DNA of 62,857 bases from Candidatus Omnitrophota bacterium (lineage in GTDB: Bacteria > Omnitrophota > Omnitrophia > Omnitrophales > JACROU01), in NCBI GenBank assembly GCA_016214265.1, contig JACROU010000044.1:32462-95318 (forward strand), written 5' to 3'. The translations under genes and the position numbers were made by a program. Positions 26,716 to 62,857 of this stretch are shown here, piece after piece; within the stretch, counting starts at the first letter, position 1; the number at the start of each line of letters is the position of its first letter. The notes under the pieces are model-generated. The model searched no databases. It was not told the origin of the DNA and saw nothing but the letters and a program-made list of their open reading frames with translations.

Positions 26716-27222
26716 ATGAATCGAATTTTGTTTTTGTTAATCACGGTGCTTTTTAGTTTTTGCTTTTCGGGGTGCAGCTCATTGAATGCCAAGGCTCATG
26801 TGGCGCCTTATCCATCGGCCTCGCAGTACGCGCCGACAGACGCGAAACAGGTTTATGTTTATTACAACCAGGTCCCGTTTAGGTATGAAGTTATCGGAGA
26901 AATTGATAGTTCGGGAAATGAAGCGGCAACGTGGCCGGATTTGGAAAAACAAATGTCGAAAAAAGCGGCGCAAATTGGCGGGCAAGGGGTTCTTATCCAG
27001 TATAAAGCCGCCCCGGAGTTGACGCGCCATCATTCCGGCAAACTGGAAATCAAATCGCCGGCCGCCGGAACCACGCAAAATAATACGGCCGCAACTCAAA
27101 ACAGCGGGATCAACAATCTGCTGAATTCAAACGTAACGTTCGACCCGCCGCGCGATGAAAAAGTGTATACCAAAGAAATGCGTGGCCTGGTGATTCGCTT
27201 CAGCGAGCCTACGCGCTCTTAA
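26716..27222 (+). CDS. Lipoprotein of unknown function
   Basis: A 168-residue protein with a lipoprotein signal (ILFLLITVLFSFCFSGCSS; lipobox FSGC), an alpha/beta domain (VYVYYNQVPFRYEVIGEIDS, LEKQMSKKAAQIGGQGVLIQ) resembling small heavy-metal-type or YbjQ-like folds, a low-complexity TTQNNTAATQN linker and a C-terminal tail. The start ATG 26716 is set by the signal sequence; the longer frame overlaps the upstream gene. It converges with and overlaps the 1360-residue gene by 14 nt. Confidence 0.7.
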   Translation: MNRILFLLITVLFSFCFSGCSSLNAKAHVAPYPSASQYAPTDAKQVYVYYNQVPFRYEVIGEIDSSGNEAATWPDLEKQMSKKAAQIGGQGVLIQYKAAPELTRHHSGKLEIKSPAAGTTQNNTAATQNSGINNLLNSNVTFDPPRDEKVYTKEMRGLVIRFSEPTRS

Positions 27223-30200
27223 GGATTTGTACAATACCACGCCATTCTTCCACAATTTTACCCAGCGAAGAGGCAATTGCCGACCAGCGGATATCATAGC
27301 GGCGCGCGTGAATCAAATTTCCCTTCGCATCCAGAATTCCCCGCAACCCCAGTTTTTCAAGGGCGATTAAATCTCCGCGGTGATAAGCCAATAGATGTGC
27401 CAAGGAGCGCTCCACCACGAGTGCCCCTAGCCGTTCGCGTGTAGGCGCTTTTTTGAAGGAAGCATCCTCGGTGACAGGCGAGAGTAAATTCAAACCTTGG
27501 TAGGCGGCGAGTGAATCCAAAATGGCCGCATTAGCGTTTATCGAAATCATGTGATAGACATTCGGCGTATTGAACCGCCGCGCGAAGGCCTCGATGGCGT
27601 CTTGTATTTTTGAGCTTTCGATAAATCGTACGCCACGCACTGTTGTTAACTGGGTTTTGATTTTTCGCGATACCGGAATGGTGATGGCAATCGCTGTTTC
27701 TTCCCGGCTATTCCATTGATGCGTCCAAGCGATCAGATTGGCAACGTCTTCTGTCAGATGATCGCTGGTGAGCACGTTTAGCACAGGCCGCGCCCCCTGA
27801 TTGTTGGTGAGTGCGGAAATTATTTTTTCCATGAGGCTATTTTTGCCGGAAGGCGGTTCCGGAATTTGATTTCTCAGAATCCGGTTTATGCTGACGGATC
27901 TGTTTGTTTCGAGAAGCGGAATGAGGCGCTCAGCTTCTGAGCGCGACGTTTGGATAAACACCGGAGACAAAAGTCCGTCTGCATAATCCACCGCGATTTG
28001 AGTTACAGCGCCAAGCGAACTTCCAGCTGTGCCAAGAGTGTCTTGCAGTGCGCGGTGATAAGGAATGTTTGAATTCATTAATTGTTTGTTTACATTCTCA
28101 AACATTTTTTTCTTAACGGCTTCCAGCGCAATTTCGGGAGTTGCCTCATTTGCCACAAAAATCGAAACATAAGGCGCGTGAGAATTTTGCTCGATGGTTA
28201 CTTGAACTGGGGATGCCCAGCGATGATGCTCGTCGTCTTTGGACCAGCCCGTTAGAAACAGGTCTGTATCCAAACCAAACCTGGTCTTGATGATTTTCGG
28301 AAGATTTTCCCAGGTTATTTCGCCCGAGCCGTTGGACGTTGTCTGTGCAGTGGCGCCGATGCTTGCGGCTATTACCGCGGCGGAATCAGCTTCCGGTGTC
28401 TTTAAAGAAAGCTGCCAATCGCTGTTTTTGTTCTTTTCGAGAATCCCGGCAACGTCTGGTTTCGACATCAGCGTCTCTGTCTGGCCAGGCGGAATTTTTC
28501 CCGCGAACACAATGGGAATTTTGTTCGCAAAAAATTTGGCTGTTACCGGCTGAGCATTATTTTCCGGAGAATAATCAAAGATTCTATTTGATAAAGTAAA
28601 AACTTTGATGACGGTTTTGCGTATTAGTTGATGAATGCCCTGAATTTCTTCGGAGTTGAAGCCGGCGGTTGCCGGCGGTTGATAGGCGATAAAAAAACGC
28701 CCCACCATTTGGCGGGGATTTTGATTAATCAACGCGGGCTTAAGCTGTCCCATCAGAATTTCTTGAAAAGATTTCTGCTTTGCTTGTGAATCGATAATGC
28801 CAGACCTGCCCACAACAAGAACAATTGCTTTAAGTCCGCTGTCGAGGGCTTCTTCCATCACGGAATCCATTTGTTCGTCCCAAGCGTTGGGGAAAGAAAT
28901 ATTGTCGGGGCGCGTAGGGCCTGAGCGCAGAATCAGGCCGGCAGCGTCGGGATTAAGATCGAGAACCTCCGTGATGCTTTTGGGGGTGGCGTCTTTCGCC
29001 GTCCTGATTTTTTTGCCGGCATAGTGTTCCGCCAAAGGGAAGTATTCGCTGATGCATTGTTCGCCCAGGCTTTGTCCGTTATTTTTTGGCGAAAACCAAT
29101 CATGAATTTTTGTCCGTTCCTCTTCCGTCAAGTCTTTGGCTTTATTACGGGAGAAATAATTTAAAACCGCCTGAGAGATGGCCGCGTCATCGTCACCCAA
29201 TGGGGCCTTGACAATAATGTGAAGCATGTTGTTTACGCGGTCATAAGCGACTTCGGTTTCCGGCACTTCCTGTAACCGGAAAAAATGCAATGAAATGTGG
29301 GAAGCGATAGGGCCCGAATATTTGAAACCCGGCCGTTTGTAGTAATCCTTCCAGGCTATTGACAGAGCAGACATAAATACGGATTGTCTCTGGCCCAAGC
29401 TGGAGCCGAAAATTGTTTTCCGAATTTTTTCTACCTTGCTTTGAACCCCCAAAATTCTACTGCCAGAAATCAGGAATTCCTTTCTCTTTTCACGCACAAA
29501 CTTTATTGTTTGATCGCCGTTTTTACTGAATTTGGGAAACCCTGAAAAAGGAATGACGCGGCCGTTTTTTAGGAAAATTCCGAGTTGAATAATTTCCGTA
29601 CCGGGCATTAGTATTTTGTACATACCCTCTAATTCAGCGACAGGAACGTTCAGGTCAGATAATTGAAAGGCCATTTCGCGAAGCTGATTGTCGAAAAGAT
29701 GATTGCGCGCATAACCTTTTCGTTCCATGCCTTTGCCGTAGGGGAAAATCAAGAAGAAAGGGAGTTCGCAAATATCGTCGGCTGTAATTTTGGCGATTTC
29801 GGATTTTGTTTCCGCGCCAAGACTGGCAGCTTTAAAAGCGCGAACACACTGTTCGACGGCGGCAATACCCGCGGGATCTACTGACAACAGTTCTTGAACC
29901 GGTTGGGCGGCATCGGGTTTGGGCATCGTGGCCAATTTCGGTAGTGTCACCGAAGTATGCAAAATCGAATCGCGGTATTGATTCAAAGAAACGGTGTCGG
30001 CCAAATGAGAGAAGCCTTCCGGTTCTCCGGCCATGCGCTCTGGCGTGATGACACGAGTTAGGATTCCACGGGCGGCCAATAATTTTGAGATTGAAGCCGT
30101 ATGAAATCCGCCGGTGACCAAAACCGCTTTCCGGGCCCGGTGCTTACCGAAAAGTGTAACAAGGTTTTTCGACATGGCTTCGTTGCGAAGTTCGGCACCG

Positions 30201-31291
30201 ATATAAAATTGATGCGCAAGCTGATATAGCGAATCCATTTCGCGATAGGGGAATTGTTTGGCACGAATTTGTTTCCATTCGTTTACAGAAAGCTCCACTT
30301 TCAGCAGCTTGGAAAACAATTTCGCGTTTTGCCAATCATTCAGAAAGATCCGTTCCGGTTCCGTCCGCGCGAGTTTCTGAAGCAGGTTTTCCGTGAGCGT
30401 GTTGATTTCTTCGAACAGATTTGTGCCCGCAAGCTCCTCCTTCAGCAAGTGGAAACGAAGAGCGGTTTTTAAATTTTCTGACGCCGGAAGCGGTTTCTTT
30501 TTATCCAAAAAGATTTCCAGAAGGTTTCGTATCGGAAGAGCGCGCAGTTGGGGGGTGAGTGAGCTTTTGAATTGTTGATACTCACTCTCGGCTTCTTTTG
30601 CGATGGGTTTTTTCTCAAGCGCCAGAATATGAAGAATGTTCGGATAGTCCAATTGATTGCGAAGTGCGGTCAATTCTTGAGCAAATCCTTGCCGATAAAC
30701 TTTTTTGAGAATTTCCAGATAAGGAAGCGGTTTTAGACGGCCTTCGCTGAAAGCGTCCTCATGACGGATTAAATCACGCAGGTTTGGATTTAGTTCCCGG
30801 CTTGACCGGGCCATCAGATGCTCGCGAAGCGTTCGTGAAAATGATTCTGCCCGGTCGTGCTGGCGTAGAATGTTTTGAAGAATATGGAAATATTTTGCGT
30901 AAAGTTCTTTGGTTTCAACCCCCGCGAAAACGAGATCTGTTTTTTTCGTTGCCGCAAAAAAATCCGCACCGGAAATTTCGCCGTGTTTCACAAGATGAAG
31001 GAGGATGTCCCGGTTGGTTTTGGGATTGGCATTAAACCGGAGCACTTCCGGCGTTAGGCGGGTCCACGCACCTTCCACCGCGACAAAGTCGATTTTTTCT
31101 GTCGCCGTAATCTGACGCAAAAGTTTCTCGATGGCCAGCTGAGCAGCTTCATCCGAGTGAGCATCTTCGATCAGGATCACCTCTTGCCGAATGGGTGAGG
31201 CGGCGGCAGACGCGTTTGCCGGGACTATTTGTCCCAGGGCAAAACTGATAGTAAGTAGTACGGCAATAAGAGAACGAAACGACATCATCAT
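27209..31291 (-). CDS. Large exported protein with DAH/VEGA/GGFH domain
   Basis: A 1360-residue protein with a signal peptide (SLIAVLLTISFALGQIVPANA). The first ~430 residues carry three spaced motifs: EDAHSDEAA (D43-A-H45), VEGA (residues 72-75) and TGGFHT (G394-G-F-H397). The giant protein at 55938 has the same motifs at similar spacing, so they share a domain. The arrangement recalls TraB/Tiki/EreA-type enzymes, where His and Glu residues form the active site, but this is not proven. Residues ~430-1360 are not recognised. An AGAAGGA site precedes three consecutive ATG codons. Confidence 0.8.
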   Translation of the reverse strand: MMMSFRSLIAVLLTISFALGQIVPANASAAASPIRQEVILIEDAHSDEAAQLAIEKLLRQITATEKIDFVAVEGAWTRLTPEVLRFNANPKTNRDILLHLVKHGEISGADFFAATKKTDLVFAGVETKELYAKYFHILQNILRQHDRAESFSRTLREHLMARSSRELNPNLRDLIRHEDAFSEGRLKPLPYLEILKKVYRQGFAQELTALRNQLDYPNILHILALEKKPIAKEAESEYQQFKSSLTPQLRALPIRNLLEIFLDKKKPLPASENLKTALRFHLLKEELAGTNLFEEINTLTENLLQKLARTEPERIFLNDWQNAKLFSKLLKVELSVNEWKQIRAKQFPYREMDSLYQLAHQFYIGAELRNEAMSKNLVTLFGKHRARKAVLVTGGFHTASISKLLAARGILTRVITPERMAGEPEGFSHLADTVSLNQYRDSILHTSVTLPKLATMPKPDAAQPVQELLSVDPAGIAAVEQCVRAFKAASLGAETKSEIAKITADDICELPFFLIFPYGKGMERKGYARNHLFDNQLREMAFQLSDLNVPVAELEGMYKILMPGTEIIQLGIFLKNGRVIPFSGFPKFSKNGDQTIKFVREKRKEFLISGSRILGVQSKVEKIRKTIFGSSLGQRQSVFMSALSIAWKDYYKRPGFKYSGPIASHISLHFFRLQEVPETEVAYDRVNNMLHIIVKAPLGDDDAAISQAVLNYFSRNKAKDLTEEERTKIHDWFSPKNNGQSLGEQCISEYFPLAEHYAGKKIRTAKDATPKSITEVLDLNPDAAGLILRSGPTRPDNISFPNAWDEQMDSVMEEALDSGLKAIVLVVGRSGIIDSQAKQKSFQEILMGQLKPALINQNPRQMVGRFFIAYQPPATAGFNSEEIQGIHQLIRKTVIKVFTLSNRIFDYSPENNAQPVTAKFFANKIPIVFAGKIPPGQTETLMSKPDVAGILEKNKNSDWQLSLKTPEADSAAVIAASIGATAQTTSNGSGEITWENLPKIIKTRFGLDTDLFLTGWSKDDEHHRWASPVQVTIEQNSHAPYVSIFVANEATPEIALEAVKKKMFENVNKQLMNSNIPYHRALQDTLGTAGSSLGAVTQIAVDYADGLLSPVFIQTSRSEAERLIPLLETNRSVSINRILRNQIPEPPSGKNSLMEKIISALTNNQGARPVLNVLTSDHLTEDVANLIAWTHQWNSREETAIAITIPVSRKIKTQLTTVRGVRFIESSKIQDAIEAFARRFNTPNVYHMISINANAAILDSLAAYQGLNLLSPVTEDASFKKAPTRERLGALVVERSLAHLLAYHRGDLIALEKLGLRGILDAKGNLIHARRYDIRWSAIASSLGKIVEEWRGIVQILKSA

Positions 31292-55937: not shown

Positions 55938-58900
55938 ATGAAAAATATTTTCTCCAAAAAATTTATCCAATTTTCCACCGCAGTCACATTTGTGGTTTTT
56001 CTTATTAATTCTGTCGCATGGGGACAAGTTACATCTGGTTTCCGTCCGTCAGAAATTAGAACCGTTCTGTCCGTCTCTATTCCGTCTGAATTGGGCCGTG
56101 TGATTGAAACCGAAGCGTCTTTCCCCGACCAGCCGCTCGTCATTCATATTCAAGACGCGCATGCCAATGACACCGCGCAGAAGAACATGGCGAAAATTCT
56201 CGACTATCTGGTGCACGAGAAAAAAATTAACACCGTGTTTGTCGAAGGCGCCATTGGCGAGCTGGATGCGCGTTATCTGAAATTTTCTGAAGACCGTAAA
56301 TTGAACCGGAAAATTGTGGATCATCTGACGCGTTTTGGCTTAATGACGGCGTCGGATCTTTATCTTTTCGATCATCCCCGGGGAGTTGATTTTATCGGCA
56401 TCGAAAATGCAGAATTGTATCGTGAGGATCTTAATCTTTTCAAAAAAGTGATGTCGCAAGAAAAACAGTCCCGGGAATGGATTCGTTCCAACGAGAAAGA
56501 ATTGGAACGGAACCTCACACGCTCGGTGAATAAAGATCTGCTTACCGCGCTTCGCATTTATCTGCGCGAAGATGCGAGTACCTCATCGATTATGAAAGTG
56601 CTTGGAACGCTGGGGCAACTTTCTGAGCGGCATCTGAATCGGGATTTGCGCGACGCTAAAGAACAGAAAGAATTTCCGAACCTGGTTCGCTTGATGCGGC
56701 TTAAGCTGGAAAAAGAAAATTTGGATCAGGCAAAAGTGACCGCTGAACAGAAAGAAATCGAAAGACTTGCCGGCGCATGCGACTTGGAACACGACAATCC
56801 GCGTTTCGAGCTCGAAAGACTGTATGCGAAGCTCAAATCCAAGGGTTTTGAATTTTCGAAATATCCGAATTTTACCCGCTATGCCAAGCGGTTGATTTAT
56901 GAGCGCGAACTGGATTCTTCGCTTCTGTTTGAAGAGCTCGATCGGTGGCTTGAGCTATTGATGAATACCCTGGCCAAAACACCAGAAGAGAAACGGGCGG
57001 TTGAGCAAGTGAAACAGGCCAAGCTCGAAGCCAAGCTGCTCGTCCTCGAACTAACGCGGAAGGATTGGCCCAAGACCCGGGACTTGAGACCAGAGACTAG
57101 AACTCTTGTCGCGGGGCGCGGGTCTCTGGTCAATGCAGCACTTGAGTTTTACCGTCTCGCCGAACAACGCGAGGCCGCCTTTTTCGACACTATCCAAAAA
57201 ACTCTTAAAGCCAGACACGAATCCCGCGCCATCGTGATCACGGGGGGATTTCATAGTGATGCGCTCAAAAAATATTTTGTTCAAACCCGCGCCAATTACA
57301 CCGTCATCATGCCCGGAGTTGAGGGCGACAGCCGTACAAGTTATGTGAAGGCCTTGCTGGGGCGCGCCTCGGAAACTGCCGCCAGTTCCGATCTCGCCAT
57401 CAATCCGCTGGCCGAACCGCCGGCGTTTGCCGCAAAACTTGGAATCAACCTCGGCGAACGCAAGGCCGTTATCGCTGAAGCCAGAGCCGCCAGCTTAGGC
57501 GAGGATGAAAATGGCGCAGCCGCTGCTTCCAAAGATTCGCTGACGATTGGGAAAGAAGGATTTGAGCTTGCGCCCGGCCAGGAGACAATTGTACACGCGG
57601 GCGACCATTATTTTTATGTTAGCTATAATCAAGTTATCCTTCTTGATGAAAAAGATTTTTCTCCGGTTAAAACGATTCCTCTCAGCGGAAAAATTAATAT
57701 TGAGGCCGACAAGTTTTGGGCGACTGATTCTGAGAATCTCGATCTCGTTCGAAAATTTCTGGAATGGAGAGCGCTCAAACAGAGCGTTCTTCTTAGCATG
57801 CCTTTCGGCAATCGCGCGGGAGGAAATGGCGGGATGTATTTTATCAACGTCAAAGATCCCAGAACCGACGCGGTACAACGCGTGATTGGAACTGCCAAAC
57901 CCGGTGATGTGCGCCGGGCAGTCGTGAAATTCAGCAAAGAGGATGTCAATCGCTCCGCGCGCTATCAGACAATAAAAAAAGAGTGGGGGCGAATACGTGA
58001 TTTTATGGCTGAAACACTGAAAGCGGGCAAACTGGTATTTCGTGATCTGGGAGTTGAAGATGACGAAAAAGAAACCTACGTTCAGCAGCCGCTCGTTGTG
58101 CTTTCGGATTTGATACGTGATGCAAAAACATTGGAAGAAAAGAAATACTTCACAGACCGGTTCGTTAGCTTTATAGAAGCTTTCTGGGGAGCTGGTTTTA
58201 TGGATATGGATTTGCGTCCGGAAAATTGTGGTTTCAACAAAGACGGCAGGCTTGTTATTCATGATTTTGATTACACTAAAACTATGAAAGAGTTTGCCGA
58301 ATCCGACTCCTTCGAAAAAAGAGGGGTGTTTGTCAACTATATCGTCAACAACGCAATATTTTTTGAACAGATTGATGAAAATTTGCGCAACTATTTTTTG
58401 AGTAAAGTTGAAGCCATTAGTTTTATGAAAGAGATAATAAATGAATCGGAGCAGGAGTCCCAGTTTCATGGCACGTTCAAAAATTATGTATTAGTAAACC
58501 CGGAAATAAATCCCGAAGCTTATGATAAGGCCATCGAAGAAGCCCGGAAAAATCCTCTTCTAGCATTGATTCGCTGGGGAGTTCAGAAAAATAAAGAAAG
58601 AGAGCTTTTGCAGAAGGAACAAAAGCGATTCTCTGGCAACTTAAAAATGTGCAAGGATTTGGAAGAAAAAATTCAAGCGATCTGCAATGAAATAGCGCTG
58701 AATTGCTTTAATTTTTTTGAAGAAGCAGTGAATAAAAGAGAAGCTAATCTTATCGAATTGTTTGAAGGGATAAAAAAATCAGAAACAAAGAAAGAAGCCA
58801 TGCCTGATGCGGTGCCCCCCGATCCTCAAATGGCAAGTCTTTGGGCAAAAAAATACGTAGAGCCATACAAAAATTATCAAACCAATGCGCAGCGATTCGC

Positions 58901-61900
58901 AGTTCTTGAAAGAGAGCTTGGAGACTGGATCAAGTCCCCTGTATTGGATGCCTTGAAACAAAGCGAAGAAGAAAGTTTGAAAGAGTTTCTCGAGTTAAGA
59001 AAACGTTTGAATCTTGTCGACGGACGGCAGATTTTTGTGGGTAGAAAAGTCCCCCGGTTTCAGATGCTGGATCAGGATTTGTCCATGAAGCATGACTATC
59101 ATTTTGTGGTAATTAAGATGGTAGATCCGGATGATGGGACGGAAAAGCTTTATATTATGGATTTGAATGCGCGCCAGAAAAATCCGAGCCAGACGAACAT
59201 TTTCCGGGTTGTTCCTTCTGGGACCTACAAATTTAAGAAGCAAAATACAACTACTGGAGATATCGAAGAAGTTTCCTTGGCGCAATGGGGTGTGGGAACG
59301 ATTAATGTTCCCCAGCCAGAGACCTCAACAGATCAGGAATCGGAAGTATCTCGAGTTCCTTCGATAAGAACGCAAGATTTGGTCAGATCAATGAGAGCCT
59401 CAGATCCTACGGGAACGGTGAAAAAACCGGAAATAAAATCAGATGGAAATCGATCTTCCACTTCGATGGAAAATCCGTTTAAGAATCTGCTTTTAAAAGC
59501 TGTTCTGGATTTCATTCAGGATAATCGAAAGAATTTTAATTTTTCAGAAGATACAGAAAAAATGAATCAGTTCCGACAGGCTGTAGCTGAGGGTTTTGAA
59601 ATATTGTCCCCAGAATCGAAAAAGGAGCTGGAGTCATGGGAAAAAGAAATTGAATCTGAAGGCCTTCGGAATTTAGATCTTCAGATGGAAAACGGAGTAA
59701 TCCGTGTTGCTCACAAAAAACGAAGAATAGATCCCATACAACATAAATTTCTAAATCCTCTGGCCAAAATATTCCCCGGCTATGAATTTCGAGAAGGAAA
59801 ATGGTCAAGATATTACGTTCAAGTAACCGGAAATGTGGCCATCGGTCAGGGTAAGCGTGCGATTGTGCGGCCTGAAAAAAATAAAGATGGAAAGACGGTA
59901 TGGACAGAAGTCAAATCCGGTGCCAAAAGTTTAGGTTCTGAAAAATCAGAATCGGCAAAAGGTCATAGTCTGGGCGCGGAAAAAGATGAATTTGTTTCAC
60001 CGAATGGAATGCTTCTGCCCGCTGACAGCGAGGTGATTCTGAGTGCGGCAAATTCCACTTTTTATCTCAATTCAGATCGCGTGGCGCTGATTGTTCCTGA
60101 TGCGGAAGGGAAAAACCTTCTTCAGATGAACGCGGTTCCGTTTGTCGAGGGGACTTTTTTGGAGCGGGAGAAATCGGGCGGGAAACAATTTACATGGTCA
60201 ACCAGTCAGGCGGAGCTTGAAAAAATCTACAAATTTTTTAAATGGAAAACACTTGGAACGGATGTGGTTTTAAAAAAACCCCGATGGGCCGGGCGGGGAG
60301 CCAACGGAATTGCACTTCATATCCTTGTGAAGAGTCCGGAAACCGCTGCATTTCATGCTGTGCTGGGCGAGACCAAGCCTGATCAGGTCAGCAAAGTTTA
60401 TTTAAAAATCAGCGCGAAAGCCACGACTCGTGACGAGGTGTTCGATGAAATTTCGAAGCCCCAGCATGAACGGCTGAGAAAGTTTATGGCGGCAACAGCG
60501 CGGCTGGTAACCGAACAAGAATTCAAAGAGGCCGGTTTAAAAAAACCCGAGCAGTATGAAACTCAAAACAAATTATATGTGCAGCAGCCGGTAGTGATTT
60601 TAAGTGATGTGATGCGAAACGCGAGAAGTCTGGACACGCAAAAATTCCTTATCGATCAATTTGTAGACCGGGTCGAAGCTTTTTGGCGTTCAGGATTTAT
60701 CGATATGGATTCTCGTCCCGACAATTGGGGATTTAACGAAGAGGGTGATCTGGTATTTCATGATTTTGATTACACGATAACCAGCAGACAGTTCAACAAT
60801 CCCGAGACGTACAAAAAATTCAACATGTCCGAATTGGATTTCAAGGCGCAGCTTTTCGCTAATTATGTGTTAAACAACGCCGCCTTTTTTTACCGGATCG
60901 ATCCGTTGCTTGCCGATTATTTTTTGACTCGGATCGCCACGGTTCCATTTATCAATGAAATTTTAGTGGATTGCGAAACCTCAGACGATCCGGCGCGATT
61001 CAAACGTCTTATGGGACTTGCAAAAGCCTGGAATGGTATTAAAACCGAAAAGGAAAAAACCCAGGTGATTTATGACGTTGTGGAATATTTTAAAACTGCG
61101 GTAATGAGCCGGAAAGACGATCTGGCCGCTTTGTTCAGAAACACGCCTCCCCGGACTATCAAAGATTCCGAAAAGACATCCATTGCCGAGCAAAAGAAAA
61201 GGCTGGCGTCGCAATGGGCGAAAATTTTCGTGGAACGGTATCACGATTATAATCAGCAAGCGAAACGTTATGAAGAAATGGGAATCGAGTTAAGCGAGAT
61301 TGTTGATTCAAAAATTTTCGAAGATTACAACACCGAAGAGTTTCGGAACGTGGGCATTTTGTTGAATAAGACGAAAGAGCTTAACAGTAAATTCCAGCTG
61401 AAGGGTATAAAACTTGTGTGTGTGGGAAAAAGCGTTCCGCATTTTCAGTTACGAGTGAATGACCCTATGTTGGATGATTTTCATTTTGTGGTTATAAAAG
61501 GCCAAGATCCAAGTGGCAAATATCAAACTGTGGTTTTGGATTATGGGGCTGTGAATGAGGGTGATGGGAAAAGCAAAACGCAAATTATGGCCGTTAACTC
61601 CAGAGGATCTGTGCCTATTTATCTGAAGACAAAAACTGTTGATCCGGAAAAGGGATTTGTAACTAAGTTGGAACCGGTTAGAGATGGGCAGTTGGTAGAT
61701 CCGGGAACTATGGAGCAAAACTTTGGCGCAAAAAATAACAATGAAGAAGATTTGCTGAGAAATCTTGGAATCGAATTGGTTTCCGAAGAGGGGGAATCTA
61801 TTTCTGACATACGGCAGGCAGATAAACCGGCAGAATCGGAACTTGAAATTAACACCTTTGATATTCAGAGCGCTCTGGCGGGGTGGGAGGAGGAAAAATC

Positions 61901-62857
61901 TGTGACACCGGAAACAAAAAGAGTTGATGTAACAAAATCCGGGGAATTTAAATTGCCCGCGGCCGCATCCGAAGAGGATCCCCTCCGGGAAGTGAAGAAG
62001 AATATAGTGGCCGCCAATGCGCAGCTTGAAGATCTCTCTCCTTTAATTCGCAAGGCCAGAAAAAAAGGATATCAGCTTGTTATTTGGAAAGATGTGGCGA
62101 AGATGCCGCAGCATGAGAGAAAAGCCTGGCTTCGAAATCTTGATTTCAATATTACCAAGCTGGATCAGCTTTATCAGGATTGGGTGATGAATCACGCTCC
62201 GCTGACTGTGTACGTCGATGACGCGGGGATCTGGGTTCAGGGGGGTAAGCCTTCCTCCGGTGACACGATGGCTTACGAAGCCTTCGAATTTGACGGAAAA
62301 AAATGGCAGCATACTTATTTCAAATTTGTTGTTCAACCCGAATTGGGCACGGTCCAGCGAATTGTTGTTGAGCCGGCGTTGGAAGGGGGCAGTATTGTTT
62401 TGAGGAAGAAAATCACCCCGGAGAAACCGGAGAAAGATAATTCGGTTACGAAATGGCTGGATTTTACGGGAGTTCAGGGAAGCCCTTTGGCCAAAAAATT
62501 CGCGCGTAGTAATGTAACGCTCGGCTGGTTCAAGGCGCTGGTTCGGGAAGCCTTTCAAAGCAAGTATTGCCTCGATGTTGCCATAGATTTAAAGGGAATT
62601 GGGGATAAACAAAAAGCGATTCTTGAAACGGCTGTTTCAAAACTCTCGCAGGTTTCAGAGGTATTGAAAAGAGGAAAAACCGATCCTTTTCTTTCGATTC
62701 ATATTCATGAAACTCCTTTTGGGATACAAATTCCTTATGAGCAGGTTGTGATAGGTGATGTTTATCTCAAGAGATTTGAATTTGACCCCGCCGCCGGTGC
62801 TTGGCAGCCTTATCATGCGTTGAAATGGGCTTCTAAAGAAAGTGTTACGTGGAAACC
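55938..62857 (+). CDS. Giant exported protein with two kinase-like modules, 3' end off window
   Basis: One open frame of at least 2306 codons reaches the window edge without a stop. Residues 1-30 are a signal peptide (IQFSTAVTFVVFLINSVAWG). Residues ~60-450 hold the DAH/VEGA/GGFH domain (D73-A-H75, V102-E-G-A105, G436-G-F-H439). Then come two related ~540-residue modules, ~535-1095 and ~1355-1890. Each has a VVKF- or YLKIS-like lysine strand, YVQQP, a catalytic-loop-like segment (D756-M-D-L-R-P-E-N763; D1589-M-D-S-R-P-D-N1596) and HDFDY (775-779; 1608-1612), as in atypical protein or aminoglycoside kinases, then a FHFVVIK/YHFVVIK block. The remainder is unrecognised. It is probably periplasmic or secreted; the target is unknown. 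Confidence 0.85.
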   Translation, partial: MKNIFSKKFIQFSTAVTFVVFLINSVAWGQVTSGFRPSEIRTVLSVSIPSELGRVIETEASFPDQPLVIHIQDAHANDTAQKNMAKILDYLVHEKKINTVFVEGAIGELDARYLKFSEDRKLNRKIVDHLTRFGLMTASDLYLFDHPRGVDFIGIENAELYREDLNLFKKVMSQEKQSREWIRSNEKELERNLTRSVNKDLLTALRIYLREDASTSSIMKVLGTLGQLSERHLNRDLRDAKEQKEFPNLVRLMRLKLEKENLDQAKVTAEQKEIERLAGACDLEHDNPRFELERLYAKLKSKGFEFSKYPNFTRYAKRLIYERELDSSLLFEELDRWLELLMNTLAKTPEEKRAVEQVKQAKLEAKLLVLELTRKDWPKTRDLRPETRTLVAGRGSLVNAALEFYRLAEQREAAFFDTIQKTLKARHESRAIVITGGFHSDALKKYFVQTRANYTVIMPGVEGDSRTSYVKALLGRASETAASSDLAINPLAEPPAFAAKLGINLGERKAVIAEARAASLGEDENGAAAASKDSLTIGKEGFELAPGQETIVHAGDHYFYVSYNQVILLDEKDFSPVKTIPLSGKINIEADKFWATDSENLDLVRKFLEWRALKQSVLLSMPFGNRAGGNGGMYFINVKDPRTDAVQRVIGTAKPGDVRRAVVKFSKEDVNRSARYQTIKKEWGRIRDFMAETLKAGKLVFRDLGVEDDEKETYVQQPLVVLSDLIRDAKTLEEKKYFTDRFVSFIEAFWGAGFMDMDLRPENCGFNKDGRLVIHDFDYTKTMKEFAESDSFEKRGVFVNYIVNNAIFFEQIDENLRNYFLSKVEAISFMKEIINESEQESQFHGTFKNYVLVNPEINPEAYDKAIEEARKNPLLALIRWGVQKNKERELLQKEQKRFSGNLKMCKDLEEKIQAICNEIALNCFNFFEEAVNKREANLIELFEGIKKSETKKEAMPDAVPPDPQMASLWAKKYVEPYKNYQTNAQRFAVLERELGDWIKSPVLDALKQSEEESLKEFLELRKRLNLVDGRQIFVGRKVPRFQMLDQDLSMKHDYHFVVIKMVDPDDGTEKLYIMDLNARQKNPSQTNIFRVVPSGTYKFKKQNTTTGDIEEVSLAQWGVGTINVPQPETSTDQESEVSRVPSIRTQDLVRSMRASDPTGTVKKPEIKSDGNRSSTSMENPFKNLLLKAVLDFIQDNRKNFNFSEDTEKMNQFRQAVAEGFEILSPESKKELESWEKEIESEGLRNLDLQMENGVIRVAHKKRRIDPIQHKFLNPLAKIFPGYEFREGKWSRYYVQVTGNVAIGQGKRAIVRPEKNKDGKTVWTEVKSGAKSLGSEKSESAKGHSLGAEKDEFVSPNGMLLPADSEVILSAANSTFYLNSDRVALIVPDAEGKNLLQMNAVPFVEGTFLEREKSGGKQFTWSTSQAELEKIYKFFKWKTLGTDVVLKKPRWAGRGANGIALHILVKSPETAAFHAVLGETKPDQVSKVYLKISAKATTRDEVFDEISKPQHERLRKFMAATARLVTEQEFKEAGLKKPEQYETQNKLYVQQPVVILSDVMRNARSLDTQKFLIDQFVDRVEAFWRSGFIDMDSRPDNWGFNEEGDLVFHDFDYTITSRQFNNPETYKKFNMSELDFKAQLFANYVLNNAAFFYRIDPLLADYFLTRIATVPFINEILVDCETSDDPARFKRLMGLAKAWNGIKTEKEKTQVIYDVVEYFKTAVMSRKDDLAALFRNTPPRTIKDSEKTSIAEQKKRLASQWAKIFVERYHDYNQQAKRYEEMGIELSEIVDSKIFEDYNTEEFRNVGILLNKTKELNSKFQLKGIKLVCVGKSVPHFQLRVNDPMLDDFHFVVIKGQDPSGKYQTVVLDYGAVNEGDGKSKTQIMAVNSRGSVPIYLKTKTVDPEKGFVTKLEPVRDGQLVDPGTMEQNFGAKNNNEEDLLRNLGIELVSEEGESISDIRQADKPAESELEINTFDIQSALAGWEEEKSVTPETKRVDVTKSGEFKLPAAASEEDPLREVKKNIVAANAQLEDLSPLIRKARKKGYQLVIWKDVAKMPQHERKAWLRNLDFNITKLDQLYQDWVMNHAPLTVYVDDAGIWVQGGKPSSGDTMAYEAFEFDGKKWQHTYFKFVVQPELGTVQRIVVEPALEGGSIVLRKKITPEKPEKDNSVTKWLDFTGVQGSPLAKKFARSNVTLGWFKALVREAFQSKYCLDVAIDLKGIGDKQKAILETAVSKLSQVSEVLKRGKTDPFLSIHIHETPFGIQIPYEQVVIGDVYLKRFEFDPAAGAWQPYHALKWASKESVTWK
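57088..57131. repeat. GTAGACC-family inverted repeat inside the giant gene
   Basis: GACCAGAGAC (57088-57097) and GTCTCTGGTC (57122-57131) are exact reverse complements with a 24-nt loop. The preceding GACTTGAGACC and the following AGAGACTA are shared with the element at 8587-8664 on the opposite strand. It encodes the in-frame segment around RDLRPETRTLVAGRGSLV of the giant protein. Confidence 0.75.

Follow-up and report, generated by a model that had tools for sequence, protein, structure and literature searches.

Introduction

The Omnitrophota have been proposed to live as predators or parasites, and their genomes contain giant open reading frames of unknown function (PMC10066038); gigantic proteins of this phylum that mix enzyme and signalling domains have already been reported in the lipocone paper (PMC12419801). 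Few domains could be named in these proteins, which rank with the longest on record, and this has kept their function an open matter: published accounts link them to predation or symbiosis, and put the emphasis on few annotated domains, on adhesins, or on the mixture of enzyme and signalling domains (PMC10066038, PMC12419801). The protein described here belongs to the same phylum and is likewise very large. What can now be added is a set of named domains, AceK-like and canonical kinases and an EreA/ChaN-like head, and, for the chains of middle size, a junction motif that provides a map of their segments.

Kinase-fold enzymes that work outside the cytosol are known from eukaryotes, whose secreted atypical kinases Fam20 and WNG have altered glycine loops or motifs (PMC7948968, PMC6442604); they can be likened to the present modules by their presumed way of working, the organisms and the architecture being different. 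The other enzyme of interest is AceK, in which a DYD motif is compatible with activity and D477 is required for the phosphatase activity (PMC6591243).

The window analysed here (62,857 nucleotides, C31:32462-95318) contains a long frame in which the first-pass annotation had recognised a signal peptide and two kinase-like modules. In the literature that we searched—preprints and most subscription journals aside—there is no report of Omnitrophota AceK-like tandem kinases, of an EreA/ChaN-like head or of the junction motifs. Multi-enzyme giants as such are known; a segmented-chain system could be new in kind if cleavage is shown.

A long frame interrupted by a scaffold gap

The frame starts at an ATG directly 3' of an in-frame stop and is open up to the end of the window, in agreement with the first-pass annotation, which had counted at least 2,306 codons without a stop. 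Immediately beyond the last base of the window lies a scaffold gap of 15 N (C31:95319-95333). Extending the contig, as had been advised, yields 3' of this gap a further frame of 409 aa with its stop at about C31:96563. The residues immediately after the gap, TWDEKTQTWILKASSLG, finish the repeat domain that the gap interrupts, so that the two sides very likely form one gene, encoding a protein of about 2,720 residues in total. As 15 N break the reading frame, the true length of the gap must differ from this number. The protein begins with the leader MKNIFSKKFIQFSTAVTFVVFLINSVAWGQ, which from sequence and hydropathy is predicted to be of the Sec type, in line with the signal peptide noted previously; the hydropathy of the sequence reveals no second transmembrane-like stretch elsewhere in the protein.

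Table 1. Features of the kinase-bearing protein (positions in the window; residues of the protein).
Feature	Position	Strand	Residues and remarks
Whole reading frame in the window	55938..62857	+	1-2306; 3' end open at the scaffold gap
Sec-type leader peptide	55938..56027	+	1-30; predicted from sequence and hydropathy
N-terminal module, probable EreA/ChaN/Tiki-like fold	56034..57485	+	33-516; common to 38 ORFs of the genome
Junction motif ARAASLG	57480..57500	+	515-521; directly before module 1
Module 1, first of the tandem pair	57501..59309	+	522-1124
Kinase-like core of module 1	57708..58487	+	591-850
K664, beta3 lysine candidate	57927..57929	+	by alignment
Catalytic loop DMDLRPEN	58203..58226	+	756-763; catalytic and metal-binding roles predicted for D758 and N763
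HDFD, DFG-equivalent	58260..58271	+	775-778; D776/D778 align with AceK D475/D477
Repeat domain, copy 1	59331..59957	+	1132-1340
Junction motif SGAKSLG	59916..59936	+	1327-1333
Second junction copy AKGHSLG		+	1340-1346
Module 2	59949..61737	+	1338-1933
Kinase-like core of module 2	60183..61007	+	1416-1690; includes K1490
Catalytic loop DMDSRPDN	60702..60725	+	1589-1596
HDFD of module 2	60759..60770	+	1608-1611
Repeat domain, copy 2	61821..62342	+	1962-2135
Repeat domain, copy 3	62328..62855	+	completed past the scaffold gap

When aligned with each other, the two modules are 28% identical across 650 columns (E=3e-74). An assembly duplication was ruled out, the copies being only about 28–33% identical. 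The lysine candidates K664 and K1490 fall in the same column and are also conserved in the two closest homologues from a related genome, OFTM55; the catalytic Asp and Asn and the DFG-equivalent Asp are present in both modules (D758/N763/D776 and D1591/N1596/D1609). The combined pattern of the loop and DFD/DFG occurs twice in the real protein and never in 2,000 shuffles, and it is absent from all the other ORFs of the contig stretches of this genome that we examined. The initial description of two modules, each with a lysine candidate, an Asp/Asn loop and an HDFD motif, is thus borne out by both the alignment and the motifs. In both modules, besides, the glycine loop is unusual, an Arg replaces the catalytic-loop Lys and the HRD motif is absent; no conserved alpha-C Glu was found at the expected position among the close homologues, in a region where the alignment is uncertain.

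A probable kinase-like fold close to AceK

Compared with the PDB, a profile of the core has AceK as its best match (2e-5), followed by 5yjz (2.6e-4) and MAPK8 (3e-4), while an earlier profile of five sequences found MAPK11 (6e-4) and AceK (0.002). Profile-profile alignment by hhalign gave E=7e-7 against a canonical PknB-like kinase of Omnitrophota and E=6e-8 against Omnitrophota AceK proteins. The structure prediction and fold search that had been advised gave for module 1 an AF2 model of low confidence (pLDDT 52, pTM 0.41), for which only four sequences served as input; with this weak model all 50 of the 50 top PDB matches of Foldseek were kinases, at E-values between 4e-3 and 3e-2, none of them reaching 1e-3. 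Since profile, profile-profile and fold-match results agree, we consider it very probable that the modules have a kinase-like fold.

That the likeness might be convergent or spurious was considered. As single sequences modules 1 and 2 indeed lie under every curated cut-off of Pfam, AceK_kinase included: Pkinase is sub-threshold for the single protein, at 0.025 with the whole protein and 0.005 with the core, and NCBIfam gave no useful match for the kinase modules. Against this, the three kinds of evidence indicate kinases independently of each other, and a homologue within a 23,704-codon frame of OFTM55 passes the AceK_kinase cut-off (7.4e-9), so that a chance likeness appears very improbable. 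Three other homologues are sub-threshold for AceK_kinase, the E-values among homologues ranging from 0.0005 to 7e-9 with one over the cut-off.

By sequence comparison the nearest known family of the modules is AceK (PF06315; PDB 3eps, 3lc6, 6k5l). The order and spacing of the catalytic Asp and Asn are alike, AceK D457 aligning with D758, and AceK, like the modules, has D-[YF]-D instead of DFG: past their catalytic loop the modules read HDFD, which aligns with YDYD of AceK. Unlike AceK the modules have no Glu after this motif (DFDY here), and according to Pfam the AceK regulatory domain (PF20423) is absent from the protein; as they are moreover under the family cut-off, we call them AceK-like and not AceK. 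Another difference is that one exported-type chain holds two of them, whereas the AceK of E. coli resides in the cytosol. With the eukaryotic-type protein kinases (PF00069) the modules share a catalytic loop, the DFG equivalent and the predicted topology, and they differ from them in lacking HRD, in having Arg where the loop Lys would stand, in reading DFD for DFG and in showing no conserved alpha-C Glu. The kinase interpretation of the first-pass annotation therefore holds for the kinase-like fold, the conserved loop and the leader; the aminoglycoside kinases that it had evoked give way to AceK as the closest relative.

Are the modules active? The motifs that they retain predict that at least one of them probably is. 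Alternatively both could be pseudokinases, which keep the fold and some motifs as a scaffold for binding nucleotides or proteins and transfer no phosphate. The unusual glycine loop, the lack of a clear conserved alpha-C Glu and the Arg for the catalytic-loop Lys would suit this possibility, as would the scarcity of ATP expected outside cells and the loss of the loop in some relatives (L180, L185 and L189). At the opposite, Lys, Asp, Asn and the DFG-equivalent Asp are kept in both modules and in most relatives, despite an identity of no more than about 28–33% between the two modules, and AceK is active with its DYD motif (PMC6591243). We regard pseudokinases as unlikely.

Relatives of the kinase core in the phylum

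A profile of the two modules found no further match in their own genome outside the kinase-bearing protein. In OFTM55 the same profile has three matches: two in proteins of 1,713 and 1,948 aa that have the same N-terminal module, the third within the 23,704-codon frame, where a neighbouring stretch can be read as a SecA-type ATPase motor. A core profile of seven sequences reached 37 of 384 Omnitrophota genomes, with many of the matches in frames of 2,000 to 33,000 codons. Among the Omnitrophota relatives—L177 and L178, phylum matches that resemble ordinary kinases, being left out of the count—about 27 of the 31 sequences examined retain the D-x(4-6)-N loop, in most cases with D[FLMY][DGN] behind it. 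The search for homologues in the phylum, which had been recommended, thus speaks for a conserved Asp/Asn loop. A predicted fold unrelated to kinases, or the loss of the motifs among homologues, had been named beforehand as what would count against kinases; both were looked for, and the kinase reading stands, with the reservation that confidence in the predicted model is low.

Three giant frames with the kinase core (23,704, 33,383 and 25,332 codons) were read fully or nearly so and contain zero N. By contrast, apparent frames of 24,000 codons at C1:1-72000 in the genome of the window were rejected as genes, this region consisting of masked Ns. The OFTM55 giant (G001:C4:123960-195071, minus strand) is a true frame with a hydrophobic leader, the AceK-like kinase core and the end KRAA; two other frames of OFTM55, of 16,199 codons (G001:C26) and 8,086 codons (G001:C18), have the same N-terminal module.

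Searching the phylum with AceK_kinase also uncovered genuine AceK domains, which lie in long proteins from other Omnitrophota. In one of these proteins (L199:5400-13988, plus strand; 2,863 aa) a hydrophobic leader is combined with a full AceK, made up of the regulatory domain (E=1e-58) and the kinase domain (2e-37); an HMGL-like domain, a weak match to MTHFR and motifs of the RSELR type are also present, and the C-terminus is LLQAA. As this protein carries a full AceK, the presence of AceK-type enzymes in long exported-type proteins extends beyond the window. AceK, HMGL-like and MTHFR domains are normally those of cytosolic enzymes.

A family with a common N-terminal module

Thirty-eight ORFs of this 2.3-Mb genome open with the N-terminal module, and together they amount to 62,728 residues or about 8% of the bases in the genome. 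In OFTM55 it is found at roughly 44 places, after merging the search rows by hand, and relatives occur in Omnitrophota, in Elusimicrobia and in one Auribacterota record. Its structure is predicted with confidence (pLDDT 90, pTM 0.85), and the five best Foldseek matches are EreC and related proteins (probability up to 0.97, E 0.013), with ChaN lower. An alignment of the module has columns in which D, H, E, R and GG-H never vary, and its conserved DAH, E and GGFH motifs recall the erythromycin esterases EreA/EreC and ChaN/Tiki (PF04187; PDB 6xcs, 2rad, 2g5g); unlike them the module has a large helical part. Pfam gives only weak ChaN matches, and apart from ChaN and DUF5694 the matches appear due to chance. 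Because the E-values of the fold search are modest, membership of the EreA/ChaN/Tiki superfamily is likely, not certain.

A hydrophobic leader is present in 35 of the 38 ORFs, and two of the three exceptions lack their 5' end. Downstream of the N-terminal module, the siblings scanned with Pfam carry AA_kinase, HATPase_c, Metallophos, HAD, methyltransferase and HEAT domains. One sibling has a single canonical protein kinase domain (4e-41); another, on contig C5 (L054:2-8077, minus strand), has four canonical Pkinase domains in tandem (E=5e-103); a third, on contig C79 (L025:11312-19996, plus strand), has the leader, the N-terminal module, ClpB-type AAA+ domains (E=1e-80) and one more AAA domain. 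In the sibling with four kinases an x-S-L-G junction precedes each Pkinase, and several of the catalytic motifs appear intact. A C-terminal domain of about 210–245 residues, reaching the last residue, is common to several members including the kinase-bearing protein. Accordingly the tandem modules stand as first described, but they do not stand alone: their protein is one of about 38 multi-domain proteins. The constant N-terminal module followed by changing enzyme domains recalls the polymorphic toxin systems (PMC3482391); unlike these, the family varies in the middle of the chain, with a C-terminal domain that some members share.

Junction motifs and the fate of the chain

The modules are separated by the motif [AVTSI]-x-[AG]-x-S-L-G, found just ahead of each kinase module in the present protein and in OFTM55, and likewise ahead of each of the four kinases in the C5 sibling. 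In the contig stretches of the genome that were examined, the form [AVTSIGLC]-x-[AG]-x-S-L-G was counted 115 times across the 61,847 aa of the 38 family ORFs, against 10 times in 119,690 aa of the other ORFs there, taken as controls; seven of these 10 sit in apparent family fragments. Written in reverse, the motif turns up twice. Both AGY and TCN codons are used for the junction Ser, and these mixed codons indicate that the constraint acts on the peptide; a repeat of DNA was rejected on the same ground. A plain signal peptidase site is unlikely, no hydrophobic stretch lying ahead.

The same class of proteins in other Omnitrophota lineages (L079, L092, L106, L126, L131 and L151) repeats other motifs, RSELR/RAEVR, GARLA or GARMA; in many further lineages sampled no such repeated motif was seen. 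The ends of the proteins are also particular: 15 of 22 complete members end with AA or SA, compared with 7 of 293 control ORFs, two of these seven being the tail of the kinase-bearing protein and a likely family fragment. Similar C-terminal endings also occur in other Omnitrophota.

The position preferences of the motif—two small residues with a free one between—resemble those of a protease site. This suggests polyprotein processing, and a uniform linker is also possible. Judging from the motif statistics, cutting at the junctions is a serious prospect, to which we give slightly less than even credit. Alternatively, the chain could stay intact as an exported surface or structural protein—coat, adhesin or scaffold—with S-L-G as a mere linker. 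Giant ORFs of Omnitrophota have indeed been proposed as coat or adhesins (PMC10066038), linkers that join shuffled domains can grow uniform, and none of these junction motifs is repeated in the largest carriers of the kinase core, the giants of 23,704 to 33,383 codons; cutting therefore cannot apply to every carrier. On the other hand, the siblings scanned display enzymes and repeats with no adhesin-type Pfam domain, the motif is kept at the protein level with mixed codons and with preferences like those of a recognition site, and other lineages substitute different junction motifs. We hold an uncut chain for a reasonable reading, if a rather doubtful one.

Where the kinases may act

Given its leader, the kinase-bearing protein is in all probability exported. 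The periplasm and the environment contain little ATP, which counts against exported kinases. A way out of this difficulty is that the leader fails to export the whole chain and that the catalytic modules remain in the ATP-rich cytoplasm, in keeping with the typical cytosolic ATP-dependent domains of the siblings (ClpB, Pkinase, AA_kinase). Nevertheless the leader is common across the family and no second transmembrane-like stretch would turn the chain back, and we think a cytoplasmic location improbable.

Because ATP-dependent domains are found in several members of the family, the modules would most likely act where ATP is present, and the needs of these siblings make a partner or prey cell a likelier place than open water or periplasm. 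Action on another cell is conceivable, although we lean to the doubtful side. It would agree with the predatory or parasitic habit that has been proposed for Omnitrophota, and with their unexplained giant ORFs.

On these grounds we propose a chain that opens with the leader and the EreA/ChaN-like module, continues with two AceK-like kinase modules, a small repeat domain standing behind each of them, and closes with the C-terminal domain. The leader would export it; a protease could then recognise [AVTSI]-x-[AG]-x-S-L-G after export and free separate enzymes, acting in or at the partner or prey cell where ATP is available. There, as predicted from the motifs, K664/K1490, D758..N763/D1591..N1596 and the DFD aspartates would bind ATP and metal, and the modules would transfer phosphate onto a protein substrate; possibly they also remove it, like AceK. 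This whole reading—an exported-type modular protein with two AceK-like kinases, junctions perhaps cut, kinases likely working where ATP is—leaves us evenly balanced between belief and doubt.

More broadly, it may be, and we advance it tentatively, that Omnitrophota, with related proteins in Elusimicrobia, export polyproteins in which an EreA/ChaN-like head precedes enzymes, and which are cut at a lineage-specific motif to remodel a partner or prey. Among the enzymes would then be ClpB, methyltransferases and kinases both AceK-like and canonical, the two kinases described here representing one load. If this is true, such chains would be to bacteria what polyproteins are to viruses. An exported kinase/phosphatase of the AceK type would in itself be unusual in bacteria. 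That the family counts about 38 members hints that these bacteria, which are small and perhaps live by predation or parasitism, export chains of ATP-requiring enzymes. The map of segments makes both the cutting of the chain and the action of its enzymes on another cell testable.

The window also contains a second member of the family (27212-31291, minus strand). This protein of 1,360 aa has no match in Pfam or NCBIfam; it begins with a leader and an EreA/ChaN-like module, carries three S-L-G motifs and ends with KSA.
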